In this document: positions 5,375-28,103 of the stretch, piece by piece
How positions within the stretch are numbered: the first letter of the stretch is position 1
Layout of the letters: the number at the start of each line of letters is the position of its first letter
Assembly: GCA_036378175.1 (NCBI GenBank)
Contig: DASUWY010000049.1
Coordinates: forward strand, 24,001-81,561
Length of the DNA stretch: 57,561 bases
Source: Thermoleophilaceae bacterium
Lineage (GTDB): Bacteria; Actinomycetota; Thermoleophilia; Solirubrobacterales; Thermoleophilaceae
Reading direction: 5' to 3'
Notes under the pieces: generated by a model
The model's input: only the letters and a program-made list of their open reading frames with translations
The model's database searches: none
What the model was told of the DNA's origin: nothing
Position numbers and translations under genes: made by a program

Positions 5375-6906
5375 CGTCGCCGCAGCACGTGCGCGTCGCC
5401 CACGCGGCGCGTGACCTTCTCGCCGTCCAGGTGCTCGAGGAGCGCCTGCGCGTACTTGCGCGAGGTGCCGAGCTCGTCGCGCACCGAGGCAATGCTGGCG
5501 CTGCCGTCGCGCTCGCACAGCGCGATCACCCGTGCCTCCAGCTCGGCGAGCGGCTCCGGGTGGAAGTGGAGATTGCGCGCCACGCGCACGGCCTGTCCCG
5601 CGGTGGCCAGGCGGCGGAGGCGCTCGGACGCCTCGCCCGCGGACAGTCCCGCCGCCTCCGCCAGCTCGTTGTCCGTGCGCGGCTCGCGGCCGTCCGCCCG
5701 CAGCAGCGAGGCGATCTGCAGTGCCGCCTCGTCGAGCGGCGGCGGCTGCTCCTCCACTGCTGCCTGCGGCTCGGGCTCCTCAGCCGCGGCCGGCACCTCC
5801 CCTCGCTCGAGCGCCCGCAGCCGCTCCACCACCTCGGGCGACTCGCCGTGCTTGCGCGGGTGAGCGTCAATCACCACCCCACCGCCGATCGTGTCGGGCG
5901 GGGCGAGCTGGCGGACGATCAGCCGATCGCCGGGCAGCGGCACCAGCGGCGCCTCGAGGCGCAGCTGCGCATACCCGCCGCCAAGCGGAACAACGCGTGC
6001 GGGCGCCTCGCGCGTGCCGTGGTGGATGTGCACGCGGGTGCCTCGCTCGAGCGGACGCGCGCCGGGCTCGAGCGACAGCGCGGCGTCGACGAGATACGTG
6101 GGGGCCAGATCCGCATCCGCCGCGCTCACCACGTCGCCGCGGCCGAGCTCCCGCCAGCCAACCCCCACCAGGTTGAGCGCCACCCGCTGACCGGCCTCCG
6201 CGCGCTCGACCGCCTGGTCGTGCACCTGCACGGAGCGGACGCGGGCATTCAGCCCGCGCGGCAGCACGCGCACGCTGTCGCCCGCGCCGATCGAGCCCGA
6301 CCAGAGCGTGCCGGTGACCACCGTGCCGATTCCCTTCAAGGTGAAAGAGCGATCGAGGTGAAGGCGTGGCATGCCATCCGCGCCGGCGCGTCCCTGAACC
6401 CGTTCCGCCGCGCGGTCGAGCGCGGCCAGCAGCTCGTTGAGCCCGGTCCGCTCGAGCGCGGACACCCGCACCACCTCCACCCCGGGCAGGAGATCGCGCA
6501 CCTCCTCCTCCACGAGCTCCGGCTCCCCGACGTCGGCCTTGGTCACGGCCGCCACACCCACGTCCACGCCAAGCTGCCGCAGCACGGCGAGGTGCTCGCG
6601 CGTCTGCGGCATCACGCCATCGTCGGCGGCAACGCAGAGCAGGTAGAAGTCGATCCCCGAGGCGCCGGCCACCATCGTGCGCACGAAGCGCTCGTGGCCC
6701 GGCACGTCCACCACCGACGCGCGGCGGCCGCTCGGCAGCGCGAGGGGCGCATAGCCGAGCTCGATCGAAATTCCCCTCGACCGCTCCTCCGGCAGCCGAT
6801 CGGTGTTCTTACCAGTTAGCGCATCGACCAATGCGGTCTTGCCGTGATCGATGTGACCGGCGGTTCCTAGTGTGAGCGGCTGGTCGCGGCGCTGAGGTGT
6901 GGCCAT
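5371..6906 (-). CDS. selB: Selenocysteine-specific elongation factor SelB
   Basis: GTPase that delivers selenocysteyl-tRNA to UGA codons marked by a SECIS element. The N-terminal G domain has the P-loop GHIDHGKT (about 17-24), the switch motif DVPGHE and TKAD. EF-Tu-like beta barrels follow, including the motif GIGTVVTGTLWSG. The C-terminus holds winged-helix domains that would bind the SECIS hairpin. At 511 residues it is shorter than many SelB proteins (about 590-630), mainly in the C-terminal part. It starts 11 nt after the selA stop, so the two are almost surely co-transcribed. No selC tRNA or selD is seen in the window. Confidence 0.93.
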   Translation of the reverse strand: MATPQRRDQPLTLGTAGHIDHGKTALVDALTGKNTDRLPEERSRGISIELGYAPLALPSGRRASVVDVPGHERFVRTMVAGASGIDFYLLCVAADDGVMPQTREHLAVLRQLGVDVGVAAVTKADVGEPELVEEEVRDLLPGVEVVRVSALERTGLNELLAALDRAAERVQGRAGADGMPRLHLDRSFTLKGIGTVVTGTLWSGSIGAGDSVRVLPRGLNARVRSVQVHDQAVERAEAGQRVALNLVGVGWRELGRGDVVSAADADLAPTYLVDAALSLEPGARPLERGTRVHIHHGTREAPARVVPLGGGYAQLRLEAPLVPLPGDRLIVRQLAPPDTIGGGVVIDAHPRKHGESPEVVERLRALERGEVPAAAEEPEPQAAVEEQPPPLDEAALQIASLLRADGREPRTDNELAEAAGLSAGEASERLRRLATAGQAVRVARNLHFHPEPLAELEARVIALCERDGSASIASVRDELGTSRKYAQALLEHLDGEKVTRRVGDAHVLRRR

Positions 6907-6917
6907 CGGGATGAGGG

Positions 6918-8291
6918 CTACCGGAGCGCCGCGATCACGCCGCTTGCCGCCGTGGCCGCCTCGGCGTCATCAAGCGTGCGAGGGTCGAGCAGCAGCCAGC
7001 CCTGCCGCGCGCGTCCCACCACCGGTGGGTCCCCCGCACGCAGCCGCCGCGCCAGCTCGTCCAGCGACAGCGGCGCCGGATCCACCGCGCACACCGGGCC
7101 CGACAGCTCGAGCAGCGGCAGCGCTCCGCCGCCCACCTTCGCGGCCGCGGTGATCACGCGAGCGTCCACGCCCGCTTCCGCCAGCTCGGAGCGCATCAGC
7201 TCCGCTCGCGCGGCGAGCTCGTCCTCCGCGGCGGTGAGCATCCGCAGAACCGGCACCTGGCGAAGCGCGCCCGCCGGATCACGGTAGATCCGCAGCGTGG
7301 CCTCGAGCGCGGCCAGCGAAAGCTTGTCGATCCGGAGCGCGCGTGCCAGCGGATGCCTGCGGCAGCGCTCGATCGCGTCCCGCTTCCCCACCATCAGCCC
7401 CGCCTGCGGCCCGCCGAGGAGCTTGTCGCCCGAGAAGCAGACCACGGCGCAGCCGGCCGCCACCGAGCGCCGCACCGGCGGCTCGTCCGCGAGCTCCGGC
7501 ACGCGCTCGGCCAGGGCGCCCGAGCCCACGTCGTCGATCACCGGCACGCCGAGCGCGCACAGCTCCTCGATCTCCACCTCCTCCACGAAGCCGACGGTGC
7601 GGAAGTTCGATTGGTGCGCACGCAGCAGCGCGCCGGTGTCGGCGCGGAGCGCGCGCTCGTAGTCCGCGAGCCGCGTGCGATTGGTGGTGCCCACCTCCAC
7701 GAGCCGCGCGCCCGACTGCGCCACCACGTCCGGCACCCGGAACGATCCGCCGATCTCCACGAGCTGCCCGCGCGACACCACCAGCTCGCGCCCCGCGGCC
7801 AGCGCCGCCCCGGCGAGCAGCACCGCGGCCGCGCAGTTGTTCACCACCAGCGCGGCCTCAGCGCCGGTGAGCTCGCCGAGCAGGGCTTCCACGTGTGCCT
7901 GGCGCGAGCCGCGCTCGCCGCGCTCGAGGTCGTACTCGAGGTTGGTGTAGCCGCGCCCGGCCTCCGCCGCGGCGGCCGCGGCCACCGGGGCGAGCGGCGC
8001 GCGCCCGAGATTGGTGTGCACGATCACGCCGGTGGCGTTCACCACAGTCCGCAGGCTCGGCCGCGCTGCGCGCTCGAGCCATTCGAGGGCCACTTTCACG
8101 AGATCAGGCTCGCCGGGATCGCCGGCGGTGAGCGCGTCGCGCCGCTCCGCGATCACCGCCCTCGCCGCGCTCACCGCGTACACGTGCGGAACGCCCTCGA
8201 GCCGCGCCGCCAGCTCGTCCACCGACGGCAGGCCGCGCAGCAGCGCGTTCAGCTCAGGGCCGCGTGCCGTCGACCCAGCGCTCTTCTCCAC
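6918..8291 (-). CDS. selA: L-seryl-tRNA(Sec) selenium transferase SelA
   Basis: PLP enzyme of 457 residues that converts seryl-tRNA(Sec) to selenocysteyl-tRNA(Sec) with selenophosphate. The N-terminal region has the SelA signature VNATGVIVHTNLGRAPL. The PLP-binding lysine is K290 in SGDKLLGGPQAG. The start chosen is the GTG at 8291 because AAGGAG lies 7 nt upstream. This start sits inside the 3' end of the MoaD-MoaE gene (overlap 38 bp), which suggests translational coupling. A longer reading upstream would run through the moaDE gene in another frame and is not credible. SelB follows immediately. Confidence 0.93.
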   Translation of the reverse strand: MEKSAGSTARGPELNALLRGLPSVDELAARLEGVPHVYAVSAARAVIAERRDALTAGDPGEPDLVKVALEWLERAARPSLRTVVNATGVIVHTNLGRAPLAPVAAAAAAEAGRGYTNLEYDLERGERGSRQAHVEALLGELTGAEAALVVNNCAAAVLLAGAALAAGRELVVSRGQLVEIGGSFRVPDVVAQSGARLVEVGTTNRTRLADYERALRADTGALLRAHQSNFRTVGFVEEVEIEELCALGVPVIDDVGSGALAERVPELADEPPVRRSVAAGCAVVCFSGDKLLGGPQAGLMVGKRDAIERCRRHPLARALRIDKLSLAALEATLRIYRDPAGALRQVPVLRMLTAAEDELAARAELMRSELAEAGVDARVITAAAKVGGGALPLLELSGPVCAVDPAPLSLDELARRLRAGDPPVVGRARQGWLLLDPRTLDDAEAATAASGVIAALR

Positions 8292-8901
8292 CCTCGATCT
8301 CCTTCTTCCAGATGGGCGCCTCGGCCTTGAGCCGGTCGATGATCTCGCGCGCGCCGGCGAACGCCTCGCCGCGGTGGGGAGCCGACACCGCCACCGCCAC
8401 GCTCGGCTCTGACAGCGGCACGTGGCCCACTCGATGCTCGGCCGCCGCGGCACACAACCCGTGCCGCTCCACCGCTTCCGCCACGATCGCGGCCATCTTC
8501 TCCTCGGCCATCTCCACGTAGGCCTCGTACTCGAGCTTCTCCACCTCGCGCGTCACGCCCTCGAACACCACCACGGCACCGGCGCGCGGATCGCGCACGC
8601 GCGCCACGAGCGGGTCCAGCTCGAGCGGGTCCGCCGTCACGCGAACGTGCTGCACGGCCGCCTCCCCGCCGCTCACGGGAGGAATGAGCGCAAGCTCGTC
8701 CCCCGCGTCGAGCGGCTGGTCCTCCTTCGCGTACTCGCGGTTCACCGCCATCACGAGTGGAAGACCCTCGGCGATCGATCCGAGCTCGGCCAGCGCGTCG
8801 CTCACACGCGCACCCTCGGGCAGCTCGAGCGTCACCTCGCTCGCCCCCGCGCGCTCGCGCAGCATTGCGAACAGCCGAACGGTCACCTCCATTCCGGCCA
8901 T
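8254..8901 (-). CDS. MoaD-MoaE fusion (molybdopterin synthase, MoaX-like)
   Basis: Single 215-residue chain holding both subunits of molybdopterin synthase, which adds two sulfurs to cyclic pyranopterin monophosphate. Residues 1-79 are a MoaD ubiquitin-like domain ending in Gly-Gly (78-79) after LIPPVS. MoaE begins directly afterwards. The MoaE part has the conserved lysine region APIWKKE near its end. MoaD works through a thiocarboxylate on a free C-terminal glycine, so the chain must be cut after Gly79 or act by an unusual route. Cleavage is known for the mycobacterial MoaX fusion. An alternative start is the ATG at 8892. The gene overlaps selA, linking Mo cofactor to selenocysteine synthesis. 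Confidence 0.9.
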   Translation of the reverse strand: MAGMEVTVRLFAMLRERAGASEVTLELPEGARVSDALAELGSIAEGLPLVMAVNREYAKEDQPLDAGDELALIPPVSGGEAAVQHVRVTADPLELDPLVARVRDPRAGAVVVFEGVTREVEKLEYEAYVEMAEEKMAAIVAEAVERHGLCAAAAEHRVGHVPLSEPSVAVAVSAPHRGEAFAGAREIIDRLKAEAPIWKKEIEGGEERWVDGTRP

Positions 8902-8931: not shown

Positions 8932-9816
8932 ATGCACGTGCAGGCGCAGACAGTCGAGCGCGGGTCGATCTTCGACCGCTTCCCGGCGCCGGGGCTCGTG
9001 ATCGTGGGCATCGCGTCGGTCCAGGTGGGCGCGGCGTTCGCGACCAAGCTCTTCGATCACCTCGGGCCGGCCGGCACGGTGCTCCTGCGCGTGGGCTTCG
9101 CGGCGATCGTGCTGTGCGCGATCTGGCGCCCCTCGATCCGCGCGCACTCAGCGGCGGAGCTTCGCCTTGCGGCGCTCTTCGGTCTCGTGCTCGCGTTCAT
9201 GAACCTGACCTTCTACGAGTCGCTCGACCGCATCCACCTCGGCGTGGCGGTCACCCTCGAGTTCATCGGGCCCCTCGGCGTGGCGCTCGCGGGCTCCCGC
9301 ACGCGGCTCGACGTGCTCTGGGCGGCGCTGGCCGCGGCGGGCGTGCTGCTCCTCGGCGGGGTCGGCGCGTCGGATCTCACCGGCATGATCTTCGCCCTCG
9401 TGGCCGGCGGCTTCTGGGCCGCGTACATCCTGATCAACGCGCGCGTGGGCCAGACGTTCAGCGGCGGCAGCGGACTCGCCATCGCGATGGCCATCGGCAC
9501 GATCCCGCTGATCCCGATCGGGATCGCGGACGCCGGCTCGAACCTCCTCCACCCCGACCTCCTTGCCGTGGCACTGGGGGTCGCGCTGCTCAGCTCGGTG
9601 GTGCCCTACTCGCTCGAGCTCGAGGCGCTCCGACGCATCCGCCCCCACGTGTTCGGCGTGCTGATGAGCCTCGAGCCGGCCGTGGCGGCGATCGCCGGGT
9701 TCGTGGTGATCGGGCAGGACCTCAGCACGGTCGACGTGCTCGCGATTCTGCTGGTGGTCACGGCGAGCGCGGGCGCCACAGTGGGTGCCCGCGCCCCCGC
9801 ACCGATGGACGGCTAG
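8932..9816 (+). CDS. EamA/DMT-superfamily transporter (RhtA-like)
   Basis: Inner-membrane carrier of 294 residues with about ten hydrophobic helices in two EamA repeats. Family members export amino acids or other small metabolites. The second half carries the typical VVPYSLELEALRRI and LEPAVAAIAGF motifs of the RhtA branch. The start is the ATG at 8932. Translation further upstream would run through the divergent moaDE gene. It converges with the selenium-binding protein gene, and the two stop codons are only a few bases apart. Its substrate is not known, and there is no clear link to the sel/moa operon beyond position. Confidence 0.85.
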   Translation: MHVQAQTVERGSIFDRFPAPGLVIVGIASVQVGAAFATKLFDHLGPAGTVLLRVGFAAIVLCAIWRPSIRAHSAAELRLAALFGLVLAFMNLTFYESLDRIHLGVAVTLEFIGPLGVALAGSRTRLDVLWAALAAAGVLLLGGVGASDLTGMIFALVAGGFWAAYILINARVGQTFSGGSGLAIAMAIGTIPLIPIGIADAGSNLLHPDLLAVALGVALLSSVVPYSLELEALRRIRPHVFGVLMSLEPAVAAIAGFVVIGQDLSTVDVLAILLVVTASAGATVGARAPAPMDG

Positions 9817-9820
9817 CGCC

Positions 9821-11146
9821 CTACGGGAAGATCTCCGTGGTGCAGTCGCCGCCCGGCAGGTGGATCTCGTGCGGCCGCGCCGGCCCCGTGTCGAGCTTCG
9901 TGAAGTCCACGAAGAACGTGGGATCGAGCGCGAACGAACCGTCCTCCTGCCGCGTCAGCCGCGTCATCCAGCCGCGCAGCTCGGGATAGAACTGGTTGTC
10001 CCAGGTCGAGTAGAGCGAGTTGGTCACGTAAACGCGGTCGCCGTCAAGCGACGCCTGGAGCATCTGCGGCCCGCCGTTGAGCGCGCCCTCCGCCATCGGA
10101 TGCCCGCCGTCACGGCCGAGCAGCCCGCCGAGCCACACCTGTGACTTCAGCTCCGGCGACTCCGGGTTCGACACGTCGTAGTGGCGAAGGTCGCCGTGCA
10201 GCCAGTTCGAGAAGAACAGGTCACGGTCGTCCATCGTCAGCACGAGGTCCGTGATCAGCCCGGGCACGCCGCCGGGCAGCGGCCAGCCCTCGAGCTCCTC
10301 GTTGCCCACGTCGATCACCTTGTCCGTGGTCCACTCTCCGTTCTTCGAGAAGCGGATGATGTTGCTCGACAGCGTGGCCCCCACGAATCCCTGCGTGGAG
10401 TCCGGGTCGTGCTGCCAGCGGATCTCGAGCGGGATGAGGCCGTCGGCGCCCAGGTCGATGGTCTGCACCTTCGCCTTGCGCTCCAGGTCCCAGAAGTGGA
10501 GCTGCTTGCCGTACTTGCCGGCCGGCACGTCCTCGGGGTTGAACCCGTCTTGGAACGTGTTCGGAGCGCCCCATTCCGACGAGATCAGCGTGTTCTGACG
10601 CGGCGAGTACCAGAAGTCGTACATGAACTCCTGGCCGTTCTTCTCGTCCTCCCAGCGGCCGAGCACCGAGAAGTCCTTGGAGTCGAGCACCATGAACCCG
10701 CCGGGCAGGTTGCCTTCGCTGTCTCCGAGCATTGAAACGGTGACGATGTCACCCGGCATGCAGTGCACCGTGTGCGGCGCCGTATAGCCGGCCTTCGCCT
10801 TGATCTCCTCCGGCTCGATCACCTTGGAGATCTCCGGCTTGCGGGGGTCGCTCACGTCCAGGATGTGGATCCGCGACGAGCGCATCCCCGGCACCACGAG
10901 CGTGTCGCGGCTGAGCGAGGAATGGCACGCGGAGGAGCACACGTTCCAGCCGAAGTGGTGGAGCTCGTCGCCCACGTTCGGCATCGGTGTTCGGTGGACG
11001 ATCTGCGAGTAGGTGTCGGACTCCGGATTCACATCGACGACCGCTACGAAGTCCGGCTCCTGGATGCCGGTGCCCTCATAAAGGCAGGCGACGTAGACGA
11101 AGTCCTCGGGCGGCTGCTGCTGGGCATCCTGCGGGGATGCGTACAT
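9821..11146 (-). CDS. Selenium-binding protein SBP56 family (methanethiol oxidase-like)
   Basis: A 441-residue soluble beta-propeller protein of the SELENBP1/SBP56 family. Human and bacterial members oxidise methanethiol to formaldehyde, H2O2 and H2S in a metal-dependent way. The diagnostic segment HHFGWNVCSSACH lies near residues 63-75. WQHDPDS and the C-terminal RPHEIHLPGGDCTTE are also family-typical. It starts 3 nt after the carbonic anhydrase stop, so the two form an operon. No signal peptide is seen. Selenium binding is inferred from the family, and the enzyme role is the better supported one. Confidence 0.9.
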   Translation of the reverse strand: MYASPQDAQQQPPEDFVYVACLYEGTGIQEPDFVAVVDVNPESDTYSQIVHRTPMPNVGDELHHFGWNVCSSACHSSLSRDTLVVPGMRSSRIHILDVSDPRKPEISKVIEPEEIKAKAGYTAPHTVHCMPGDIVTVSMLGDSEGNLPGGFMVLDSKDFSVLGRWEDEKNGQEFMYDFWYSPRQNTLISSEWGAPNTFQDGFNPEDVPAGKYGKQLHFWDLERKAKVQTIDLGADGLIPLEIRWQHDPDSTQGFVGATLSSNIIRFSKNGEWTTDKVIDVGNEELEGWPLPGGVPGLITDLVLTMDDRDLFFSNWLHGDLRHYDVSNPESPELKSQVWLGGLLGRDGGHPMAEGALNGGPQMLQASLDGDRVYVTNSLYSTWDNQFYPELRGWMTRLTRQEDGSFALDPTFFVDFTKLDTGPARPHEIHLPGGDCTTEIFP

Positions 11147-13847: not shown

Positions 13848-16139
13848 CTAGCGCTTCAGCGTGATCTTGCGGCTCAGCCGGCCGACGTTCCCCGCGGCGT
13901 CCTTCGACGTGACCTTCAGCGTGATCTTCACCTGACGGGCGCGCCGCAGGTTCTTACGCGCCCGCTTGGAGAACTTGATGGTCACCGTCTTGCGCGCGCC
14001 GGCGTTCAACGACACCGACTTCTTCCCGATGCTCACGGTCCGCGTGATGTGGAACTGCTTGGCCACCTTGCCGGTGAGCAAGACCTGGAAGGTGCTGCGG
14101 CAGGGCTCGTCGCACGTCTCCGTGACCTTGAGGCCGTGGGCGAGCACGTTGCGCAGCTTCTGCCGCTTGATCTTGAGCTTCACGTGCGGCGGCGTTATGT
14201 CCGGCGGAGGGGCCTGCACGTTGATTCCCACGAGCGCGTCCGTGGTGCCGCCCTCGTCGTCCACCACCCTCAGGCCGACGTTGAGAGCCCCCACCGCGCC
14301 ATAGGCGTGCGTGACGGTGGGGGCGGCGCCGGTGTCCGTCTCGAATGTCCCGTTGCCGTCGAGGTCCCATTGGTAGTCCACGATCGTGCCGTCGGGATCC
14401 GATGAGCCGGCGGACGTGAAAGTCACCGGCGCACCCACCAGTACAGGGTTCGGAGAGGCCGCGATTGCCGCGGCAGGCCGCTGGTTGGCGGTGAACGAGA
14501 AGTTCTGGGTCCGCCACGCGGGGTCGTCTGGGACGAACGGGGTGGGGCCGTTCGTCTGGCTCGAGCCCCAGATGAGGTCGGGGGCGAGCGGGTCCGGAGT
14601 CGCCGCCGCGTAATCGCCCCAGCGGCACGACGGTCCCAGCGCGCAGCTGAAGTCCTGGTCCGCGGCCGCGCTCGTGGCGAGGGTCACGTCACCACTCATC
14701 GTGCTCAAGGGCGCGGTGTACTTGCGTGTCTGAGCGTGGATCTGCGCCAGCAGGCTCGAACCGCCGAGGTTGTACTGGATACCCGCGTCGTGCCCGTTGT
14801 CCGCGGGAGAGATCGCCCCGTTGAACACGAAGTTCGAGGGGTCGGAGATCGTCCCCTGCTGCCGCACCGTCATGGTGCTCGGGATGATCTCGTACCAGCG
14901 GTCGACAGAGCGGCCGCTGACGGAGTCGATCGTGTGCTGGGTCCATACCGCCTCAGCGCCGCCGGCGTCCGGATCGGCGTGACCCACAGCCTGGGTGAGG
15001 CGGGTGTCGAGCGAGTCGAGCGTGTCCGTCGACGGGGAGGGTTGCGGCACGGCGGCAGGCACGTCGAAGCTGGACACGGACAGCGCTCCCAGGCGGGTGA
15101 ACGTCGGCGCGACCCCGGATCCTCCGATCTGCCATACGGTGAGGTGGGTCTTCGCACCCGGAGTGTCACCGGTGGGGTCGTCCGCCGCCACCGCGAAGCC
15201 GCTGCCCGACGAATCAGCGATGTTCGCCGGCTCGAGCGTCACGGCGCGGTCGCCACTAGGCACCGTGATCGGCGTGCCGGTGGAGCCGAAGGTGGTGATG
15301 CTCAGCGAGGTCGGACACGTGGTCTCGTCACCCACAGGCGGCTTGGCGATCGAATACAAGCGTGCCGTCTTGAACGTGTTGCCGTCGAAGGTGTTGGCGC
15401 TCACCAGCAGGTGGTTGTCGTCGTGCCCGAGCTTCGGGTAGTCGTCGAACAGCGTGCCGCTTGGCCCCGATGGGTCGCTCTCTATGAAGAAGTGGCACCA
15501 CTGGGCCGGGTTCATGCCGGCGGGATCCGCGGTCTTCGACCAGCCCACGTCCACAAAGCTGTCATGGGAGCAGTTCCCGTCCACGCAGTCGTCGGCGGCG
15601 TAGAACCAGCGACCCGCGGACTGGTCCCACTGGACCTGCACGTCGAAGACGTTGAAGCCCGGATCGGCTACGAAACTGTCGAGCTGCACCGGGGTGCCGA
15701 CGATGCCCAGGGTGCTGCGGCTGTACTCGGCCACCACGCTGTTCACGAACTCCACGTATGCGATGGGGCCGATCGAGCCGGTGGTGTCCGGCGGCGTGCC
15801 GGCCGAGCTGTTGTCCCCGGCAGCGAGGCCGGGCGCGTTCAGCGAGCCGAACACAGCGGCCCTCGGCCCCGGGGCGAGCCTCTGGAGGGGCGCCGCGCCG
15901 GAGCGCTCCGCCCGCCGATCGGCCGCCTGCTTCAGCGCGCGGTAGTGGGACTCGTTCTGCACTCTCAGCCTGTGCACGAACGGGCCGCGCGCCGGGGCCG
16001 CTCCGGTCAGCGGCCGTGCGGTGAGCAGGGTCCCGTGGCTTGCCGGCGGGATCGGCGTCCCACCCGCGGAGGCTGCGGAAGGAACTGCCAGGAGGGGCAT
16101 CACCAGAAGCAATGCCGCGGGCCAGCGGCGGCGAGTCAC
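13848..16139 (-). CDS. Large secreted protein with a PKD domain
   Basis: A 763-residue exported protein starting at GTG 16139. A signal peptide ends near ASA (about residue 25). The N-terminal 500 residues form a region, possibly a propeller, that opens with a PPDTTGSIG motif and has several Cys pairs. A PKD domain lies around residues 560-640 (VTFTSAGSSDPDG, DYQWDLDGNGTF). The last 120 residues are a Lys/Arg-rich beta domain ending in SKDAAGNVGRLSRKITLKR, similar in style to the C-terminus of the sugar dehydrogenase at 55201-56820. A cell-surface role is inferred, and no enzymatic activity can be assigned. Confidence 0.8.
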   Translation of the reverse strand: MTRRRWPAALLLVMPLLAVPSAASAGGTPIPPASHGTLLTARPLTGAAPARGPFVHRLRVQNESHYRALKQAADRRAERSGAAPLQRLAPGPRAAVFGSLNAPGLAAGDNSSAGTPPDTTGSIGPIAYVEFVNSVVAEYSRSTLGIVGTPVQLDSFVADPGFNVFDVQVQWDQSAGRWFYAADDCVDGNCSHDSFVDVGWSKTADPAGMNPAQWCHFFIESDPSGPSGTLFDDYPKLGHDDNHLLVSANTFDGNTFKTARLYSIAKPPVGDETTCPTSLSITTFGSTGTPITVPSGDRAVTLEPANIADSSGSGFAVAADDPTGDTPGAKTHLTVWQIGGSGVAPTFTRLGALSVSSFDVPAAVPQPSPSTDTLDSLDTRLTQAVGHADPDAGGAEAVWTQHTIDSVSGRSVDRWYEIIPSTMTVRQQGTISDPSNFVFNGAISPADNGHDAGIQYNLGGSSLLAQIHAQTRKYTAPLSTMSGDVTLATSAAADQDFSCALGPSCRWGDYAAATPDPLAPDLIWGSSQTNGPTPFVPDDPAWRTQNFSFTANQRPAAAIAASPNPVLVGAPVTFTSAGSSDPDGTIVDYQWDLDGNGTFETDTGAAPTVTHAYGAVGALNVGLRVVDDEGGTTDALVGINVQAPPPDITPPHVKLKIKRQKLRNVLAHGLKVTETCDEPCRSTFQVLLTGKVAKQFHITRTVSIGKKSVSLNAGARKTVTIKFSKRARKNLRRARQVKITLKVTSKDAAGNVGRLSRKITLKR

Positions 16140-19579: not shown

Positions 19580-21619
19580 TCAGCCCAGCACCGTGAAGCT
19601 GCTCTTTCCGAGCAGGTGGCCGTAGCGGTTCTTGCTCCGCGGCCCGATCCCGGGCCAGACGTACCACGTGTATGGGCCGGCCACGAAGCTGTAGTCGTGG
19701 CCGCCGTATGTCCAACTCGGAGGCAGCTGGAACGAGGACTTGCGTGGCCACGTGCTGAGCACCTTCGTCTTCCCGAGGTAGAGCTGAAGGTTGTAGTAGC
19801 GGGCGCGCCTCACTCGCTTCCAGGTGAGTTTGGGCGGCAGGCTCACCACCGTGCCGGGAAGCGGCCTGAGGCTCAAGGCGGTGGGCGAGCCGGGGACCGC
19901 GGTGGACGTCCGGTTGCCCGCCTGGTCGAACACGGTCACCGTGTACATGTAGTGCTTGCCGTTGCGCAGGTGACGGTCCAGGAAGCTGGTGCCCTTCCCG
20001 GCGTACACCACCTTCGTGCGCTTCCCGCGCGAGCGGGTCACTCGCACTCTGGTGGCGTCCGCGGGCTTGGTCCATGTGACGAGGACCTTGGCGTTTTGCG
20101 GGGTGGTGACCGCCTGCGGAGCGGCCGGCGGCGTGGCGTCGTAGCGCATCGCGAAGGAGGCGGTCGCGGAGTTGCCCGCGGCATCCGTGCAGGTACCGCT
20201 CACGAGGGTGTGGGCGTTCTGGTCGCCTGTATACGTGTAGTGGCTGCAGGCGACCCCGCCGGAGAGGGAGTCGACGCCCTGGAAGGCGAGCCTCACCGGG
20301 TGGTTGAACCAGCCGTTGTGGTCGGGCAGGCGATCGGGAAGCGCGCCCAGCACGGTGGGCGGAGTGTGGTCGTAGCGCAGCGGGGCCGAGCCGCTGCCCA
20401 TGTTGCCGGCCACGTCCTGACATGAGCCGCCGACGGCGGCGGACGCGCTGTCCGGCCCGCCATACACGACGTTCGACGAACAGGACGAGACACCCGAGGC
20501 GTCGTCGGCCCCCTGGAAGCTGAACGAAACCGGATGGTTGTACCAGCCGCCTGAATCGGGCGGCCGATCCGGGACGCCGGAGACCGCGGGCCCGGTGCTG
20601 TCGTAGGCGAACGCCGGCGATGCCAGCGGCGAGAGGTCGACGTTCCCGGCGAGGTCTGTGCACGATCCGGATGCCTGCACAGCAGGCCCGTCGGGGCCGC
20701 TGTAGGTCACGCTCCCGCACGGCGAGCCCACGCCGGACGTCGCGTCCGTTCCGGTGAAGTTCACCGCGACTGGATGGTTGTACCAGCCATTCAGATCGGG
20801 GCCGCGGTCTAGGGCGGAGCCGGTGGTCTCCGGCGCGGTGTGGTCGTACTTGAAGTTCATCACCAGGCCCGCGCTGTCATTGCCTGCGTTGTCGTGGCAC
20901 ACGCCCGTGACCGACGCCGTGGCGCTGTCGCCACCCGCGTACGTCACGCTCGGGCAGGTGTCGATTCCGGAGAGGTTGTCCGTGCCGCTGAAGTCGTACG
21001 TCGGCGGCGTCACGTACCAGCCGTTCGTTCCGTCCGGCCCGCTCTTGGGCGTTCCGCTCGTGACCGTAGGGGCGGTCGCGTCGTACTTGAAGGTCTGCGA
21101 GCCGTCGCCGGTGTTGCCGGCAACGTCGGTGCAGGTCCCGTCGACGCTCGCGGTCGCGCTGTCCGGCCCGCTGTACGAGACGCCGCTGGAGCAAGAGGAG
21201 ATTCCGGATGGCGTGTCGCTCCCGAAGAAGTCGAAGCTCACCGTGTGGTTGAACCACCCGTTGCTGTCCGCACTCCTGCCCGCGTTCGCGCCGTCCACGG
21301 TCGGATTGGTGGTGTCCACCTTGATCGTCACGTTGCCGTCGACGGGTGGATCCGCACCCCACGTGGCGGTGCAGGTGACCGACTGGCCGCTGGACGTGGT
21401 CTCGTTGATCGTCTGCGGGTCGCATCCCGGGCTCGTGCTGTCCGGGGGATCCGGGTCGAACGTCCAGCTCAGGTCGACTGGCGACGTGTACCAGGGGCCG
21501 CTGCAGTCCGTGGGGGCGGCCGAGCACGCCGGGGTGACGGTGTCGGCATGCGCGCGCGACGGGCTGGCCGCGGACAGCGCGACAATCGCGACCACCAGCC
21601 CGAGTCCAACCTTCCGCAT
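19580..21619 (-). CDS. Secreted Ig-like repeat protein, cassette copy A
   Basis: A 679-residue exported protein with a signal peptide ending near AHA (about residue 24). After a first Cys-rich unit come five repeats of about 80 residues. Each has a GW(F/Y)NHPV-like entry and a core with SG and Cys, and closes with a CxDxAGN pattern typical of bacterial Ig-like (HYR-type) domains. A fibronectin-type stretch follows, then a distinct C-terminal domain of about 95 residues (ARYYNLQLYLGKTKVLS, WYVWPGIGP). The middle gene of the cassette starts upstream and stops 4 nt before this start. Copy B at 22969-24300 has the same ends with only two repeats. Adhesion or surface display is inferred. Confidence 0.8.
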   Translation of the reverse strand: MRKVGLGLVVAIVALSAASPSRAHADTVTPACSAAPTDCSGPWYTSPVDLSWTFDPDPPDSTSPGCDPQTINETTSSGQSVTCTATWGADPPVDGNVTIKVDTTNPTVDGANAGRSADSNGWFNHTVSFDFFGSDTPSGISSCSSGVSYSGPDSATASVDGTCTDVAGNTGDGSQTFKYDATAPTVTSGTPKSGPDGTNGWYVTPPTYDFSGTDNLSGIDTCPSVTYAGGDSATASVTGVCHDNAGNDSAGLVMNFKYDHTAPETTGSALDRGPDLNGWYNHPVAVNFTGTDATSGVGSPCGSVTYSGPDGPAVQASGSCTDLAGNVDLSPLASPAFAYDSTGPAVSGVPDRPPDSGGWYNHPVSFSFQGADDASGVSSCSSNVVYGGPDSASAAVGGSCQDVAGNMGSGSAPLRYDHTPPTVLGALPDRLPDHNGWFNHPVRLAFQGVDSLSGGVACSHYTYTGDQNAHTLVSGTCTDAAGNSATASFAMRYDATPPAAPQAVTTPQNAKVLVTWTKPADATRVRVTRSRGKRTKVVYAGKGTSFLDRHLRNGKHYMYTVTVFDQAGNRTSTAVPGSPTALSLRPLPGTVVSLPPKLTWKRVRRARYYNLQLYLGKTKVLSTWPRKSSFQLPPSWTYGGHDYSFVAGPYTWYVWPGIGPRSKNRYGHLLGKSSFTVLG

Positions 21620-21623
21620 CTTG

Positions 21624-22265
21624 TTACCAGCCGCGCCGCGGCGAGCTGAGCTTCATCAGCAACCGGAGCATCGAGCCGCTGGCCACCGCCGCGAGCATGA
21701 GTGCGAGCGCCGCGAGCGCCAGCAGCGCCGCGGATCCCGAGTGGCTGTCGGCGGCGGCCCTGAGTGGCGCGACGGCGTCTGACACTCGGGACAGCACCGC
21801 CGCCTCCTGCCCGGTGGCCGCCGGCGATCTGTGAACGGGCGCGGCGGCGGGATGGTGGTGCGACGGCGGCCTGCGACGGTGGACGTGACGTGGCGTTCGA
21901 TGCACAGGCGCTGGGGGCGCAGCCACGACGGGGGCCGGAGCCGGCTTGGTGGGGACGGAGTGCCGGTGGACCACCGGGGTGCGCACGGGCACCGGGGTTG
22001 AGCTCGGCTTCGGCTGCGACACCGGCGTCGGTGCAGGCGCGGGCGCAGGCGTGGGGGCGCGGTCGGGCTTTGGGTTGCTGGGTTGCGGGTCGGGTGAGAC
22101 CGTCCCCGGCGCCGGGTCCGGGGATGGCGAGTCAGCGAGCGCGGGGCCGGCCGCCCACGCCGGCACTGCCAACACTGCCACGAGCGTGAGGATCAACTTG
22201 AGTCCAGCCGACGGCCCGCGTGAGGGCCGTCCGATGAACCCTGGAAGGAGGGTTCGATCCGTCAT
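21624..22265 (-). CDS. Pro/His-rich single-pass membrane protein with PRRGW tail, cassette copy A
   Basis: A 213-residue protein of unknown function, starting at the ATG at 22265. A hydrophobic N-terminal segment ending in AWAAGPALA looks like a signal peptide. It is followed by about 120 residues rich in Pro, Ala, His and Arg. A second hydrophobic segment near the end leads into LLMKLSSPRRGW at the C-terminus. The same layout and tail (LLIRLTTPRRGW) are seen in copy B. Only 4 nt separate it from the Ig-repeat gene, so the two are co-transcribed. The proline-rich part would span the wall, and the PRRGW end could be a retention or sorting signal. Both are inference. Confidence 0.7.
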   Translation of the reverse strand: MTDRTLLPGFIGRPSRGPSAGLKLILTLVAVLAVPAWAAGPALADSPSPDPAPGTVSPDPQPSNPKPDRAPTPAPAPAPTPVSQPKPSSTPVPVRTPVVHRHSVPTKPAPAPVVAAPPAPVHRTPRHVHRRRPPSHHHPAAAPVHRSPAATGQEAAVLSRVSDAVAPLRAAADSHSGSAALLALAALALMLAAVASGSMLRLLMKLSSPRRGW

Positions 22266-22294
22266 ATGAGCCAGAGAACGTCCGGATGTTCCTG

Positions 22295-22311
22295 CGGTCC
22301 TAAGGGGACCG
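22295..22311. promoter_or_regulatory. Inverted repeat 1 in the control region of cassette A
   Basis: CGGTCC 22295-22300 pairs with GGACCG 22306-22311, followed by TACA. The same CGGTC/GACCGTACA element stands at 24995-25015 in cassette B, at a similar distance from the Pro/His-rich gene. Conservation between copies supports a binding site. Confidence 0.5.
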
Positions 22312-22336
22312 TACAACGAGTCCCCGAATTTGCATA

Positions 22337-22353
22337 GCCCAGCGCGAGTGGGC
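22337..22353. promoter_or_regulatory. Inverted repeat 2 in the control region of cassette A
   Basis: GCCCA 22337-22341 and TGGGC 22349-22353 form an inverted repeat that is repeated at 25035-25057 in cassette B. In both copies it is followed within 20 bp by GGCATTGCT (22371-22379 here). Confidence 0.5.
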
Positions 22354-22401
22354 ACCTAAAAATCAAAAAGGGCATTGCTTACGCGCCAAACCGGGCTTAC
22401 G

Positions 22402-22965
22402 ATGAACACGTTGGACACTTCGTCGCTGGCCGGCTCCCGCTACCTGGAGCTGCCTTACAAAATCGTCCTCATGAGGGACAAGCGCAAGGGCTCTCGGCCC
22501 TGGCTCGCCACCGTTGAGGAGCTGCCTGGCTGCGAGGCGCGCGGCGACTCTCCGGAGGAAGCCACCCACGCGCTCCGCGACGAGATGGCGGCGTGGATGG
22601 CCGGCGCGCTGGAGGAGGGCCGCTCGATTCCGAGACCTCGGAATGCGCCCGAGGCCGCGTCGGCCCGTCTCACACTCAACGTGCCCAAGACACTGCGCGA
22701 GGGGCTCGTCCAGGCGGCCGTGCGAGAGGGCCTGTCGCTCAATCAGCTCATCACGATCGCGCTCGCCGGAACGATCCGCTGGCGCCCCGCCGCCGGAGAC
22801 AGCAACGGACGCTGGATCCAGGCACGCGCCGAGAACCTCATCAACTTGGATAACCCGCCCCGGCCCGGCCTTCGGCAGGCGCTGATGCTGAATGCCGTGC
22901 TGCTCGGGTTCGTGGCGGTGGCCGCATTGACCGTCCTCATCGTGGCCCTCGCAAACGGTTTCTGA
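22402..22965 (+). CDS. HicB-like/ribbon-helix-helix protein with C-terminal membrane anchor, cassette copy A
   Basis: A 187-residue protein. Residues about 18-75 resemble a HicB-type antitoxin fold (an IVLMRD strand, then LPGCEARGDSPEEA). Residues 85-120 resemble a ribbon-helix-helix DNA-binding domain (ARLTLNVPKTLREGLVQAAVREGLSLNQL). The last 27 residues form one hydrophobic helix. No HicA toxin gene is adjacent. It is divergent from the Pro/His-rich gene. ATG 22402 is the conventional start. A TACGAT box overlaps it, and alignment with copy B suggests the TTG at 22411 could be the true leaderless start. A membrane-tethered transcription regulator of the cassette is the inferred role. Confidence 0.75.
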   Translation: MNTLDTSSLAGSRYLELPYKIVLMRDKRKGSRPWLATVEELPGCEARGDSPEEATHALRDEMAAWMAGALEEGRSIPRPRNAPEAASARLTLNVPKTLREGLVQAAVREGLSLNQLITIALAGTIRWRPAAGDSNGRWIQARAENLINLDNPPRPGLRQALMLNAVLLGFVAVAALTVLIVALANGF

Positions 22966-22968
22966 TCG

Positions 22969-24300
22969 CTATCCGGTCACGCGGAAGCTGCTTCGCCCGA
23001 TGCGCTTGCCGTAGCGGTGGGCGGAGGGCGGGCCGAATCCTGGCCACACGTACCAGCGGTAGTGGCCCGTGGCGAGCGCGTAGGTCTTGCCCCTGAAGTG
23101 CCAGCGCGGCTTAAGCTGAACCTGCGCGGTGCGGGGCCAGATGCTCAACACTTTCTTTCCGCCGAAGAAGAGCTGCAGGTTGTAGTAGCGGGCGCCTTTG
23201 ATCTTCTTCCAGGTGAGCAGCGGCGGCGCGCCCACGACCGTGCCCACGAACGGCCTCAGGCTCGAGCCGGTGGGAATGGCCCGGATCACGGTCGTGGTCG
23301 TATTGCCCGCCTGGTCCTGGTCCGTGACCGCGTAGCGGTACTTGACTCCGTTCTTCAATCCCGTGTCGAGGAAGGAGCTGGCGCTGCCCGAGTACACGAT
23401 CGCCGCCGGCGCTCCCCCGCTCTGCGGGGAGCGGGACACGGTCACGCCTGCGGCGTCGCCCGGGACGGTCCAGGACACATCCACGCTGTGGTTGCCGGGT
23501 ATCACCTCCACCCTCGCGGCCGCCGGACGGGCGTCGTCGTACTTGAAGCTCTGTGCGCCGGATGCGGCGTTGCCCGCGTTGTCGGTGCAGGCGCCGGCGA
23601 CGCTGGCCGTCGGGTCCACCGGCCCGCTGTAGGTCGCGGTCGTGCAACCGGCGATACCGGACGTGGCATCGGTGCCCTGGAACGTGAACGAGACCGGGTG
23701 GTTGTACCAGCCGTCATGGTCCGGCGGGCGGTCGGCCGTGGCGCCGGTGACGCTGGGCGGCGTGGCGTCGTAGTTGAACGCTGACGACGCGGCGCTCGTG
23801 GTGTTGGTGGCATTGTCAGTGCAGCCGCCCATCACGGAAATGGCGCTGCCGTCGGGGCCGGAGTACGGAACGGCGGTGCACGTGCTGATGCCCGACAGAG
23901 CATCGGTACCGCTGAATGGGACCGACAACGCGTGGTTGTACCAGCCGTTGTGGTCCGGCGGCCGGTCCGGAGCACCGGCCACGTCGGTCGGGGAGGTCTT
24001 GTCGATTCTCACCGTGATGGCGTGATCTTCTGTCTCGCCTGGCGGGGGGTCGTTCCATGTGGCGGTGCAGTCAAGAGCGCTCTCGCCCTCGGTCGTGACG
24101 CTGGTGACGCCGCAGTCGCTCGACGTGACATCCGGTGTAGATGGGCTGAAGTCCCAGGCGACCGTCACGTCCGTGTTGAACCAGGGGACGCACGAGCCGT
24201 CGTTGCACGTGGCGTCCACGCTGTTGGCCGCCGCAGATTGCGGCGCGGCAATGGCCACCATCGCGGCGATGATCCCGGCCAGCACCGCAACCCGCTTCAC
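22969..24300 (-). CDS. Secreted Ig-like repeat protein, cassette copy B
   Basis: A 443-residue exported protein with a signal peptide ending near AAA. It has one N-terminal Cys-containing unit, two Ig-like repeats (each with RPPDH.GWYNH and a CTDNAxN close), a fibronectin-like linker and a C-terminal domain (GARYYNLQLFFGGKKVLS, WYVWPGFGP) closely matching copy A. It is 236 residues shorter than copy A, which equals about three repeat units. Three nt separate it from the Pro/His-rich gene upstream. Its stop lies 3 nt from the stop of the copy A HicB-like gene. Confidence 0.8.
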   Translation of the reverse strand: MKRVAVLAGIIAAMVAIAAPQSAAANSVDATCNDGSCVPWFNTDVTVAWDFSPSTPDVTSSDCGVTSVTTEGESALDCTATWNDPPPGETEDHAITVRIDKTSPTDVAGAPDRPPDHNGWYNHALSVPFSGTDALSGISTCTAVPYSGPDGSAISVMGGCTDNATNTTSAASSAFNYDATPPSVTGATADRPPDHDGWYNHPVSFTFQGTDATSGIAGCTTATYSGPVDPTASVAGACTDNAGNAASGAQSFKYDDARPAAARVEVIPGNHSVDVSWTVPGDAAGVTVSRSPQSGGAPAAIVYSGSASSFLDTGLKNGVKYRYAVTDQDQAGNTTTTVIRAIPTGSSLRPFVGTVVGAPPLLTWKKIKGARYYNLQLFFGGKKVLSIWPRTAQVQLKPRWHFRGKTYALATGHYRWYVWPGFGPPSAHRYGKRIGRSSFRVTG

Positions 24301-24303
24301 GAC

Positions 24304-24963
24304 CTACCAGCCCCGCCGAGGAGTGGTCAGCCGGATCAGCAACCGCAGCAGCGAGCCGCTGACGATCGCCACGAGGAGCAGCGTGCCCGCCGCAATCAGA
24401 AGAAGACTGCCGCTGGTGGAGTCGGCGCTCTGGGCCACCGTCAGCGGCGCGGTGGCGGCGGTGCGGACGATCCTCGCCGGTGCGGTCGTGGGGGGTGCCA
24501 CGGCTTCCGGTGCGGTCCTGGGGAGTGCCACGGGAGGCGCCGCCTTGTGCGCCGGAGCGCGATGGTGATGCCTCGCGTGATGCACGGCCGGGGCAGGCGG
24601 CGGAGTGACCACGGGCGCGGGTGTTGGGGCGGGCGGGCGCGGGGCCGTTCGAACGGGCGCGACTCTGCGCGTGACGGGGGCGGGGGTGACGGTTGTGGGC
24701 GCGGGTGTGTGGACCACCGGCGCCGGAGCGGGCCGCGACACCGGTTGCGACGGTGCGGGGTCGGGAGCCGGCTTGACCGGAACGGAGTCGGGCGACGGAC
24801 CGCTGGGCGCCGGATCCGGGGAGATGTCGGCGAACGCCGACGGCGCTCCGCAGGCCAGCACGGCCACGGCGCATGCCAACGCGAGGCGTGTCGTACGTCC
24901 GGCCGCGGTGGAACGGAAATCACACACGGCCGTCCGACCTGGAGGGAAGGGTCGAGCCGCCAT
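24304..24963 (-). CDS. Pro/His-rich single-pass membrane protein with PRRGW tail, cassette copy B
   Basis: A 219-residue protein of unknown function. The ATG at 24963 is chosen because it matches the start of copy A, with the same GGCTCA bases just before it. The layout is a signal-like hydrophobic segment ending in GAPSAFA, SPDPAPSGPSPDS, a long Pro/Ala/His/Arg spacer, a hydrophobic helix and a C-terminal LLIRLTTPRRGW. The core spacer differs freely from copy A, while both ends are conserved. This points to selection on the ends, especially the tail. Confidence 0.7.
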   Translation of the reverse strand: MAARPFPPGRTAVCDFRSTAAGRTTRLALACAVAVLACGAPSAFADISPDPAPSGPSPDSVPVKPAPDPAPSQPVSRPAPAPVVHTPAPTTVTPAPVTRRVAPVRTAPRPPAPTPAPVVTPPPAPAVHHARHHHRAPAHKAAPPVALPRTAPEAVAPPTTAPARIVRTAATAPLTVAQSADSTSGSLLLIAAGTLLLVAIVSGSLLRLLIRLTTPRRGW

Positions 24964-24994
24964 TTGAGCCAGAATCCGGAGCCTCTGTGGCCCC

Positions 24995-25015
24995 ACGGTC
25001 CTATGTAACGACCGT
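24995..25015. promoter_or_regulatory. Inverted repeat 1 in the control region of cassette B
   Basis: ACGGTC 24995-25000 and GACCGT 25010-25015 pair perfectly around a 9-base spacer, then ACA. Counterpart of 22295-22311. Confidence 0.5.
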
Positions 25016-25034
25016 ACACCCAGAATGGCCGTTT

Positions 25035-25057
25035 GCCCAGCCCGAAACGATGTGGGC
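25035..25057. promoter_or_regulatory. Inverted repeat 2 in the control region of cassette B
   Basis: GCCCA 25035-25039 and TGGGC 25053-25057, followed by GGCATTGCT at 25070-25078, mirror the arrangement in cassette A. Confidence 0.5.
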
Positions 25058-25096
25058 ACAATGGGGCGCGGCATTGCTCGTTCGAGGTTTGGCCCT

Positions 25097-25102
25097 TAGC
25101 AT
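25097..25102 (+). promoter_or_regulatory. Putative -10 box for the copy B HicB-like gene
   Basis: TAGCAT lies 6 nt before the GTG at 25109, pointing to a leaderless transcript. Confidence 0.4.
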
Positions 25103-25108
25103 TGACCC

Positions 25109-25675
25109 GTGGAGTCATCCTTGGAGTCATCACCCCTTGCGGGTGCGCGCTATCTGGATCTGCCCTACCGCATCATCCTCACCAAGGAGCGGCGAAGGGG
25201 TGGGAACGCGTGGCTCGCCCTGGTTGAAGAGCTTCCGGGCTGCGAGGCCCGTGGGGACACGCCGGAGGAAGCGACGGTCGCGCTGCGCGAGCACATGGCC
25301 ACCTGGATCGCGAGCGCGCTCGAACGTGGGCAGGCGATACCGCGGCCACGGCACGATCTGGACGCGACCAACGGGCAGCTGTCGTTCGCAATTCCCAAGT
25401 CGCTTCACGAGACGATCGCGCACGCCGCTGTGCGCGAGGGCCTGACGGTGGACCAGCTCGTCACGGTCGCCCTCGCCGCGGTACTTCAGTGGCGGCCAAG
25501 GGGGGAAGAGCCCAACGGCCGCTGGATCCAGGCGCGCGCCGCGGGTCTCGCCCAGGGCGATAATCGCACCCGCCAAGATCTCCACCGGGCGCTCACGGTC
25601 AACATGGTGCTGCTCGCGCTCGTTGCCGTGGCCGCCGTGGTCGCCCTCATCGCGGCAGTGGCGCACGGCTTCTAG
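25109..25675 (+). CDS. HicB-like/ribbon-helix-helix protein with C-terminal membrane anchor, cassette copy B
   Basis: A 188-residue paralogue of the protein at 22402-22965, starting with GTG. The parts come in the same order: a HicB-like fold (YRIILTKERR, then ELPGCEARGDTPEEA), a ribbon-helix-helix region (QLSFAIPKSLHETIAHAAVREGLTVDQL), the shared NGRWIQARA linker and a C-terminal hydrophobic helix of about 25 residues. As in copy A there is no HicA partner, and the gene is divergent from its Pro/His-rich neighbour. If the DNA-binding part contacts the conserved inverted repeats, transcription would be controlled from the membrane. This is inference. Confidence 0.75.
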   Translation: MESSLESSPLAGARYLDLPYRIILTKERRRGGNAWLALVEELPGCEARGDTPEEATVALREHMATWIASALERGQAIPRPRHDLDATNGQLSFAIPKSLHETIAHAAVREGLTVDQLVTVALAAVLQWRPRGEEPNGRWIQARAAGLAQGDNRTRQDLHRALTVNMVLLALVAVAAVVALIAAVAHGF

Positions 25676-26904: not shown

Positions 26905-27007
26905 ACTGACGCGTTCAGACCAAGCGGGGCAAGGACGCAGGGTCGAAGCCTTGCTGGAGCAAGGCGAGACCGAGGACGCCGCCCCGCGCCGGTATGAACG
27001 CGTCAGT
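26905..27007. other. Nested hairpin element between convergent genes
   Basis: Outer arms ACTGACGCGTTCA (26905-26917) and TGAACGCGTCAGT (26995-27007) are a perfect 13-bp inverted repeat. Inside, GCGGGGC 26924-26930 pairs with GCCCCGC 26981-26987, GGTC 26941-26944 with GACC 26968-26971, and GCCTTGCT 26948-26955 with AGCAAGGC 26958-26965. Each side of the internal loop holds a GGACGC. The element starts two bases after the epsilon-like stop and contains the stop codon of the minus-strand gene. A bidirectional terminator, a structured RNA or a palindromic repeat family are all possible. Confidence 0.65.
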
Positions 27008-28103
27008 GGCGCTTGCGGAAGAGGCCGGGAGGCGTAAACGGCCTGCCGCCGTGACCCTGTGAGTGCGCCGCCGGCTGCTGCGAGTGGTGCGAGGAGTGCG
27101 AATAGCCCGAATCCCCGCAACCGCCCTGATCGTCGTCATCGCCACCGCCCCCGCCGGGAGGTCCGGTGTACGGCTGCGGGACCTGGGGCTTCGGCGGCTT
27201 GGTGGGTGACGGCGTGCTCTGCACCGTCTGGGTGACCGGCGCCGACACCTGCGCAGGGGTGTTCTGGACCGTCTGCGGGGCAGGCGTGGAAACCGGCACG
27301 GACGGAGTCTTCACCGGAGGCGGCGCCGGAGCAGGCGCCGGCGGGGCGGCCGGCTTCTTCGGGTGAGCGGGCACGTGCCGGTGCGTGACGTGCTGCGGTG
27401 CGTGCCGCACCACCGGCGCCGACGGGTGGTACGCCACCGGGACGCTCGCCTGCGGCGCGGCCTGGACCGGCTCGCGCGCGAGGATGGCGTTCTGGTCCGC
27501 GCCCGATCCATGCCGCGCACGGTGATGCCGGGCCGCATGACGTGCCCGCCGCGTGGAGTGCCGGGCCGCCTTGGGCTTGGCAGCCAGCTTCTGGCCGGAC
27601 GACAAACCGCCGCCACCACCACCCTGCGCCGGAGCGGACGCCGTGGCAGGCGTATGCGATCCGCCGGCGCCGCGGTGGGCCGCGCTCGAGCCGGAGCCGC
27701 CACCCGAGTGATCCGTGGACGAAACCGCCACCGCCGCGATCACGGCGCCGAGAGCAACGAGCGGGCTCGCCGCGACCGCCACCCGGCGGAAGGCCTTTGC
27801 CCGCCGCGCACGTGAGATGTCCCCCACGAACGGCGCGGGAGCGGGCACGCCCCAGGCCTCCTCCGGCAGCTCGGGAATCGCGATGAGCAGTGCGGCGAGC
27901 TCGCTCGGCCCGGGCACTTCCATCATGTCCGCCAGCTGCGCGATTCCCCGCGCGCGCCGCGGCGGAATTGACGATGGCTCCACGCCGAGCACCTTCGCCA
28001 CCTGCTCGTCCGGAATCGCGCGGCGCAGCGACAGGTCGAGCAGCGCGCGCGTGCCGGCGTCGAGCTGGCCGACGGATTCGGCCAGCTGAGCCCGGTCGAT
28101 CAT
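27003..28103 (-). CDS. Sigma-region-4-like protein with membrane anchor and Pro/His-rich tail
   Basis: A 366-residue protein from the ATG at 28103. Residues 15-60 resemble the helix-turn-helix of sigma region 4 (RAIPDEQVAKVLGVEPSSI, with RRARGIAQL). There is no region 2, so it cannot act as a full sigma factor. One membrane segment lies at 107-128. The outer part is Ser/Gly-rich, then Pro/Ala/His/Arg-rich, and ends in an Asp-run and His/Gln-rich stretch before RKRH. The layout parallels the C-terminal half of the protein at 2716-3825. It is divergent from the sulfur operon. A membrane-tethered DNA-binding regulator is inferred. Confidence 0.6.
   Translation of the reverse strand: MIDRAQLAESVGQLDAGTRALLDLSLRRAIPDEQVAKVLGVEPSSIPPRRARGIAQLADMMEVPGPSELAALLIAIPELPEEAWGVPAPAPFVGDISRARRAKAFRRVAVAASPLVALGAVIAAVAVSSTDHSGGGSGSSAAHRGAGGSHTPATASAPAQGGGGGGLSSGQKLAAKPKAARHSTRRARHAARHHRARHGSGADQNAILAREPVQAAPQASVPVAYHPSAPVVRHAPQHVTHRHVPAHPKKPAAPPAPAPAPPPVKTPSVPVSTPAPQTVQNTPAQVSAPVTQTVQSTPSPTKPPKPQVPQPYTGPPGGGGGDDDDQGGCGDSGYSHSSHHSQQPAAHSQGHGGRPFTPPGLFRKRH

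Follow-up and report, generated by a model that had tools for sequence, protein, structure and literature searches.

The window analyzed here, a stretch of 57,561 nucleotides (G000:C49:24001-81561), comes from a Thermoleophilaceae genome assembled in 89 contigs and estimated to be 95% complete. It carries, at 19580-25675, two tandem copies of a three-gene cassette (Table 1), each with a secreted protein bearing immunoglobulin (Ig)-like repeats and a Pro/His-rich membrane protein on the minus strand and, divergent from them, a protein with HicB and ribbon-helix-helix (RHH) domains and a C-terminal membrane helix. All six genes lie in the order and on the strands given by a first-pass annotation of the sequence, whose count of five Ig-like repeats in one copy against two in the other is also correct. 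We compared these cassettes with homologous loci in the sister genome (G223) of the window's genus (g1) and across the class Thermoleophilia.

Table 1. Genes and intergenic regions of the two cassettes (window coordinates).
Feature	Position	Strand	Description
Ig1	19580-21619	-	Secreted; five Ig-like repeats; C-terminal domain with conserved YYN.QL...YVWPG
Pro1	21624-22265	-	Signal peptide, Pro/His-rich stretch and PDP motif, C-terminal membrane helix, basic tail
Divergent intergenic region 1	22266-22401		TGTACGGTC...AGGACCG block; putative operator
HicB1	22402-22965	+	HicB domain, then RHH domain, then predicted C-terminal tail anchor
Ig2	22969-24300	-	Secreted; two Ig-like repeats; C-terminal domain as in Ig1
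Pro2	24304-24963	-	Bitopic, Pro/His-rich membrane protein; 68% identity to G223 counterpart
Divergent intergenic region 2	24964-25108		TGTACGGTC...AGGACCG block; putative operator
HicB2	25109-25675	+	HicB domain, RHH domain, predicted C-terminal tail anchor; G223 copy is the orthologue

The HicB/RHH proteins of the window match Pfam families near threshold, namely PF15919 (27.4 bits in copy 2 and 25.2 bits in copy 1; cut-off, 27), PF21748, and PF05534, the last of which is firm in their relatives (up to 46.6 bits). Structure modeling of the protein (five sequences; mean predicted local distance difference test score [pLDDT], 73; predicted template modeling score [pTM], 0.36) yields a beta-beta-beta-alpha layout, two helices, and a C-terminal helix of ∼30 residues. 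The top Foldseek matches of the model are HicB antitoxins from Burkholderia pseudomallei and E. coli, and by sequence the RHH part has a weak match to the antitoxin EndoAI; the predicted fold is that of a HicB antitoxin with an RHH domain. The C-terminal helix is strongly hydrophobic in both window copies (hydropathy, 2.9 and 3.1), and since it is predicted to stop within a few residues of the C terminus, we read it as a tail anchor; one Asn inside it is invariant in all 18 sequences. Neither HicB1 nor HicB2 has a called HicA gene next to it; the spaces there are 136, 145, and 3 bases, the first two being the divergent spacers between the Pro-rich and HicB genes.

Searching the order with a single HicB protein returned matches in G223 and three other genomes, and the same kind of query found no match in a scan of named genomes. 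A HicB profile reached 41 of 399 class genomes at an E value of 1e-8, many of them with soluble HicB homologues, and six-frame domain mapping of 38 sources then sorted the homologues into two kinds. The first kind has the C-terminal helix (hydropathy, 2.4 to 3.5) and occurs in 21 genomes outside genus g1, of which 20 could be examined for a sigma factor (the contig of G337 ends too early). In every one of the 20, a sigma factor is linked to the HicB/RHH module: the two share one chain in seven (L018, L019, L020, L082/L109, L110, L116, and L117; the fused gene of G127 is seemingly split across two contig ends, L082 and L109), and in 13 the sigma gene lies immediately before the module on the same strand (L079, L080, L081, L099, L100, L103, L104, L111 to L115, and L118). 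The second kind lacks the helix (hydropathy, ≤1.4; 14 sources, L083 to L092 and L105 to L108), and none of its 14 members has a linked sigma factor. A HicA-like gene, spotted by eye, adjoins the helix-less HicB in L106 to L108, giving what look like ordinary HicA-HicB pairs (L106 2594-3149, L107 1109-1676, and L108 8010-8577). The only helix-bearing members seen without a sigma factor are the two window copies and the G223 copy. In 396 genomes sampled from the phylum to look for the architecture beyond Thermoleophilia, matches other than the window genome's own cover the RHH part and not the membrane helix, and no plasmid record covers 80% of the sigma fusion used as query.

The linked sigma factors are of the SigB/SigF/SigG type, with regions 2, 3, and 4 all matched; their TIGR02980 matches (E values of 1e-49 to 5e-64) lie below the curated cut-off of that model. 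When placed in a tree with the 12 best of 17 sigma matches from the window's genome, the 19 locus-linked sigma factors form a single clade (branch support, 99/99), and none of the 12 that we placed from that whole-genome search belongs to it. Judged from this genome, with its 95% completeness, the sigma factor was likely lost in the window's genus.

The two cassettes appear to be old. Identity between the copies is 56% for HicB, 44% for the Pro-rich protein, and 53% for the C-terminal part of the Ig protein, and the single cassette copy of G223, which sits as in the window beside an ornithine-cyclodeaminase-like gene, is nearest to window copy 2 (68% identity for the Pro-rich protein and 65% for HicB). 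The duplication therefore appears to predate the split between the window's genome and G223; our search of G223 returned one HicB only, on a contig that stops just past the cassette. Between HicB2 and the G223 HicB, nonsynonymous divergence (dN) is 0.23 and synonymous divergence (dS) 0.88, rates by which HicB2 is under purifying selection and which indicate that the window proteins are real and conserved. At the strand positions of the RHH domain that we take, by alignment to Arc/CopG, to face DNA, the family carries R/L/R, copy 1 R/T/N, and copy 2 Q/S/A; the change in the window copies fits either diverged specificity or decay.

In relatives, the divergent side of the locus is fuller than in the window. 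Moving outward from the regulator, it encodes first one Pro-rich bitopic protein, next an Asn/Gln-rich (NQ) repeat protein, then another Pro-rich bitopic protein, and last the Ig protein, with most or all of these genes present in L099, L111, L112, L116, L117, and L118. Of the 20 testable genomes, 18 have an Ig gene, an NQ-repeat gene, or both at the sigma/regulator locus; G402 and G383 (L103 and L104) do not. The second Pro-rich gene directly precedes the Ig gene across relatives, the two lying a few bases apart or overlapping by as little, and its product has a PDP motif close to the mature start in all 12 readable cases. Continued neighborhood of the three genes in Thermoleophilia had been fixed beforehand as an observation on which the cassette's standing as a functional unit would turn, and it is what we find. 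The unit holds in the sense that the membrane HicB/RHH gene stays by Ig and/or secreted repeat-protein genes class-wide, but not as a free-standing three-gene system.

The Ig label itself derives from fn3, Big_13, and Big_3_3 matches that all fall below their cut-offs in the window proteins; the C-terminal domain is better defined, with ten invariant residues in 15 sequences. The family is present in 44 of 299 class genomes; named records that carry it are metagenome assemblies labeled Thermoleophilaceae, Solirubrobacteraceae, Gaiella, and "Actinobacteria." In many genomes Ig genes also occur without the other cassette genes. One such gene, with a single repeat and the same C-terminal domain and with no Pro-rich or HicB partner, lies on contig 14 of the window's genome (L016 5340-6404, minus strand), in a neighborhood that is kept in G223 (L165) and in L123, another Thermoleophilaceae assembly. 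L102 carries Ig genes in tandem (5498-8827 and 8942-9949, minus strand; 1,109 and 335 amino acids [aa]) with unequal repeat numbers.

The NQ-repeat protein is built of ∼75-residue repeats (as in QAIGQSAENDQ...NISVRVLSPGN) and has no curlin match in Pfam; its structure model is all-beta with a pLDDT of 39, too poor to use, and its composition would be compatible with a fiber. A search for it in the window's genome, which is weak evidence because it used a single repetitive query and lacked a positive control, gave no match. In L111 (9467-11131, minus strand) and L019 (1777-3219, minus strand), the membrane helix of the first Pro-rich bitopic protein is preceded by one NQ-type repeat and by stretches rich in Trp (WTWTW and WNWNW); this protein might form the base of a repeat-protein structure. 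Another protein of the window (27003-28103, minus strand; 366 aa) combines an N-terminal part of cytoplasm type and a long, Pro/His-rich outer part with a single membrane helix at about residue 108; it has no Pfam match and is conserved in G223 (L017 5772-6905). A further one, encoded near the cassettes (13848-15962, minus strand; 704 aa), is probably a surface protein and contains a PKD domain.

Two conserved inverted repeats had also been proposed for the divergent intergenic regions. No arm of at least 8 nucleotides (nt) is common to both copies; what a three-way alignment with G223 does retain is a short-armed block, TGTACGGTC...AGGAC(c)G, whose arms lie 7 nt apart in copy 1, 9 nt in copy 2, and 8 nt in G223. 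Dyad enumeration in 16 regulator-upstream regions found no shared promoter or operator motif, and a scan of the same regions with the SigF consensus gave hits in 0 of 16 in the sense direction and 3 of 16 in antisense (shuffled sequences: mean, 0.9; maximum, 3). With spacing not conserved and no motif shared, binding of the regulator to these repeats, as first suggested, is unsupported, and a physical complex of the Ig and Pro-rich proteins is hypothetical. The proposal of a membrane-bound regulator gains considerably from the sigma factor that is fused or adjacent to the module in all testable relatives outside genus g1.

On balance we favor the view that the cassette is a duplicated, reduced form of a Thermoleophilia locus whose tail-anchored HicB/RHH protein ties the control of surface genes to the membrane. 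It builds on gene content and conservation, on the predicted helix, on fusion or adjacency of the sigma factor, and on a single sigma clade, no member of which was found in the window's assembly. Because helix and sigma factor co-occur without exception outside genus g1, the strongest inference from these comparisons is that the HicB/RHH protein and the sigma factor jointly control the divergent operon at the membrane. The RHH part would dimerize and bind DNA of the locus, and the membrane helix would keep the protein, and any sigma factor linked to it, at the membrane. The Ig protein would be anchored at the surface. The hold at the membrane would be altered when the bitopic Pro-rich partners pass between a free state and one loaded with surface protein, or when the chain is cut close to the helix, and sensing of this kind would switch the operon, and with it the neighboring genes. 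The role of the window cassettes is less certain: with the sigma factor lost, HicB1 and HicB2 would probably each bind DNA while held at the membrane and so regulate, locally, their own Pro-rich/Ig pair. Several results pull the other way, namely the only moderate model of the helix-bearing protein (pTM, 0.36), the departure of copy 2 from R/L/R at the DNA-facing positions, the unequal arm spacing and lack of a common motif upstream of the regulators, and the absence of a linked sigma factor from the window and G223, where function may have changed. A more specific and tentative version, which we regard as rather doubtful in its entirety, makes the antitoxin-derived, tail-anchored RHH protein a membrane brake or anchor that stands alone and serves a dedicated sigma factor of the SigF type, sensing surface-protein assembly by helix-helix contacts (through the invariant Asn) with no outer sensor, and in the window's genus sigma independent, duplicated, and diverged in DNA specificity.

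The HicB/RHH protein could instead be of the anti-sigma type; in the window's genus it would be a leftover or would hold another sigma factor. In 13 genomes the protein has a gene of its own immediately following that of the sigma factor, which is the usual sigma/anti-sigma layout, and the known fusions IutY and ECF52 act through a membrane-bound anti-sigma part (PMC8999054). However, the R/L/R strand residues are strongly kept in sigma-linked members, as DNA binding predicts, no anti-sigma domain appears among the Pfam and NCBIfam matches, and both window copies persist without a sigma factor, HicB2 under purifying selection; we judge this alternative possible but unlikely. We give distinctly less credence to the idea that the protein chiefly tethers DNA of the locus to the membrane, co-locating transcription, translation, and export of large surface proteins, with switching secondary. 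A DNA-binding fold joined to a tail anchor and lacking any outer sensor domain would suit that role, as would neighbors that mostly encode exported or membrane proteins, but the strict sigma link favors transcription control, and tethering has no direct evidence. Least probable of all, and to our minds very improbable, is an orphan HicB antitoxin with an acquired hydrophobic tail that sits by Ig genes through chance or hitchhiking: the antitoxin fold and the existence in the class of ordinary HicB genes with HicA-like neighbors speak for it, whereas the gene calls at the window loci include no HicA, conservation of the helix is strong, and across the class the locus repeatedly contains sigma and surface genes.

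The proposed membrane control of the divergent operon by a HicB/RHH protein recalls several known arrangements. One-component regulators of the ToxR/CadC type carry a winged-helix DNA-binding domain and one membrane helix on a single chain; the protein described here has an RHH domain in place of the winged helix, no periplasmic sensor, and, in relatives, a sigma link. The window loci share with HicAB type II toxin-antitoxin systems the HicB fold and, after it, an RHH domain for DNA binding, but they have no adjacent HicA and add a C-terminal membrane helix and a link to sigma and surface genes. Membrane-anchored C-terminal extensions are known on sigma factors of the extracytoplasmic function (ECF) groups ECF48, ECF52, and ECF53 (e.g., SCO4117, which is also Pro-rich outside) and on IutY (ECF243) (PMC8999054). 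The sigma-fused relatives likewise have a C-terminal extension with a membrane helix, but their sigma factor has region 3 in addition to the regions 2 and 4 of ECF sigma factors, the extension consists of HicB/RHH and a bare tail anchor, without any outer domain, and the HicB/RHH part may be split from the sigma factor or, as in the window, sigma free. In Streptomyces, sigma-BldN and the adjacent anti-sigma RsbN control chaplin and rodlin genes (PMC4255298), another actinobacterial case in which a sigma factor and adjacent regulator go with secreted coat-protein genes; BldN, however, belongs to the ECF type, no HicB/RHH part has been described there, and control by BldN is experimental, while here it is inferred from gene position. 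Since the relatives have neither an ECF-type sigma factor nor an anti-sigma domain, and the window proteins have no HicA, we place the family as a variant of membrane-linked sigma/transcription control. Our searches of the open-licence literature turned up no account of a HicB/RHH-sigma membrane protein. Its fusion to, or place directly beside, a sigma factor next to secreted repeat-protein genes suggests an undescribed way of linking surface-protein expression to the membrane. If correct, this would represent a further type of membrane-anchored transcription control that combines a SigB/SigF-type sigma factor, an antitoxin-derived DNA-binding domain, and a bare tail anchor, and would offer a lead on how surfaces are built and controlled in Thermoleophilia, a class known largely from metagenomes; as fused, split, and sigma-free versions coexist, the role of each part is testable by comparison. 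The best reading is that the family works like ECF52-type or sigma-BldN/RsbN systems while being a member of neither.

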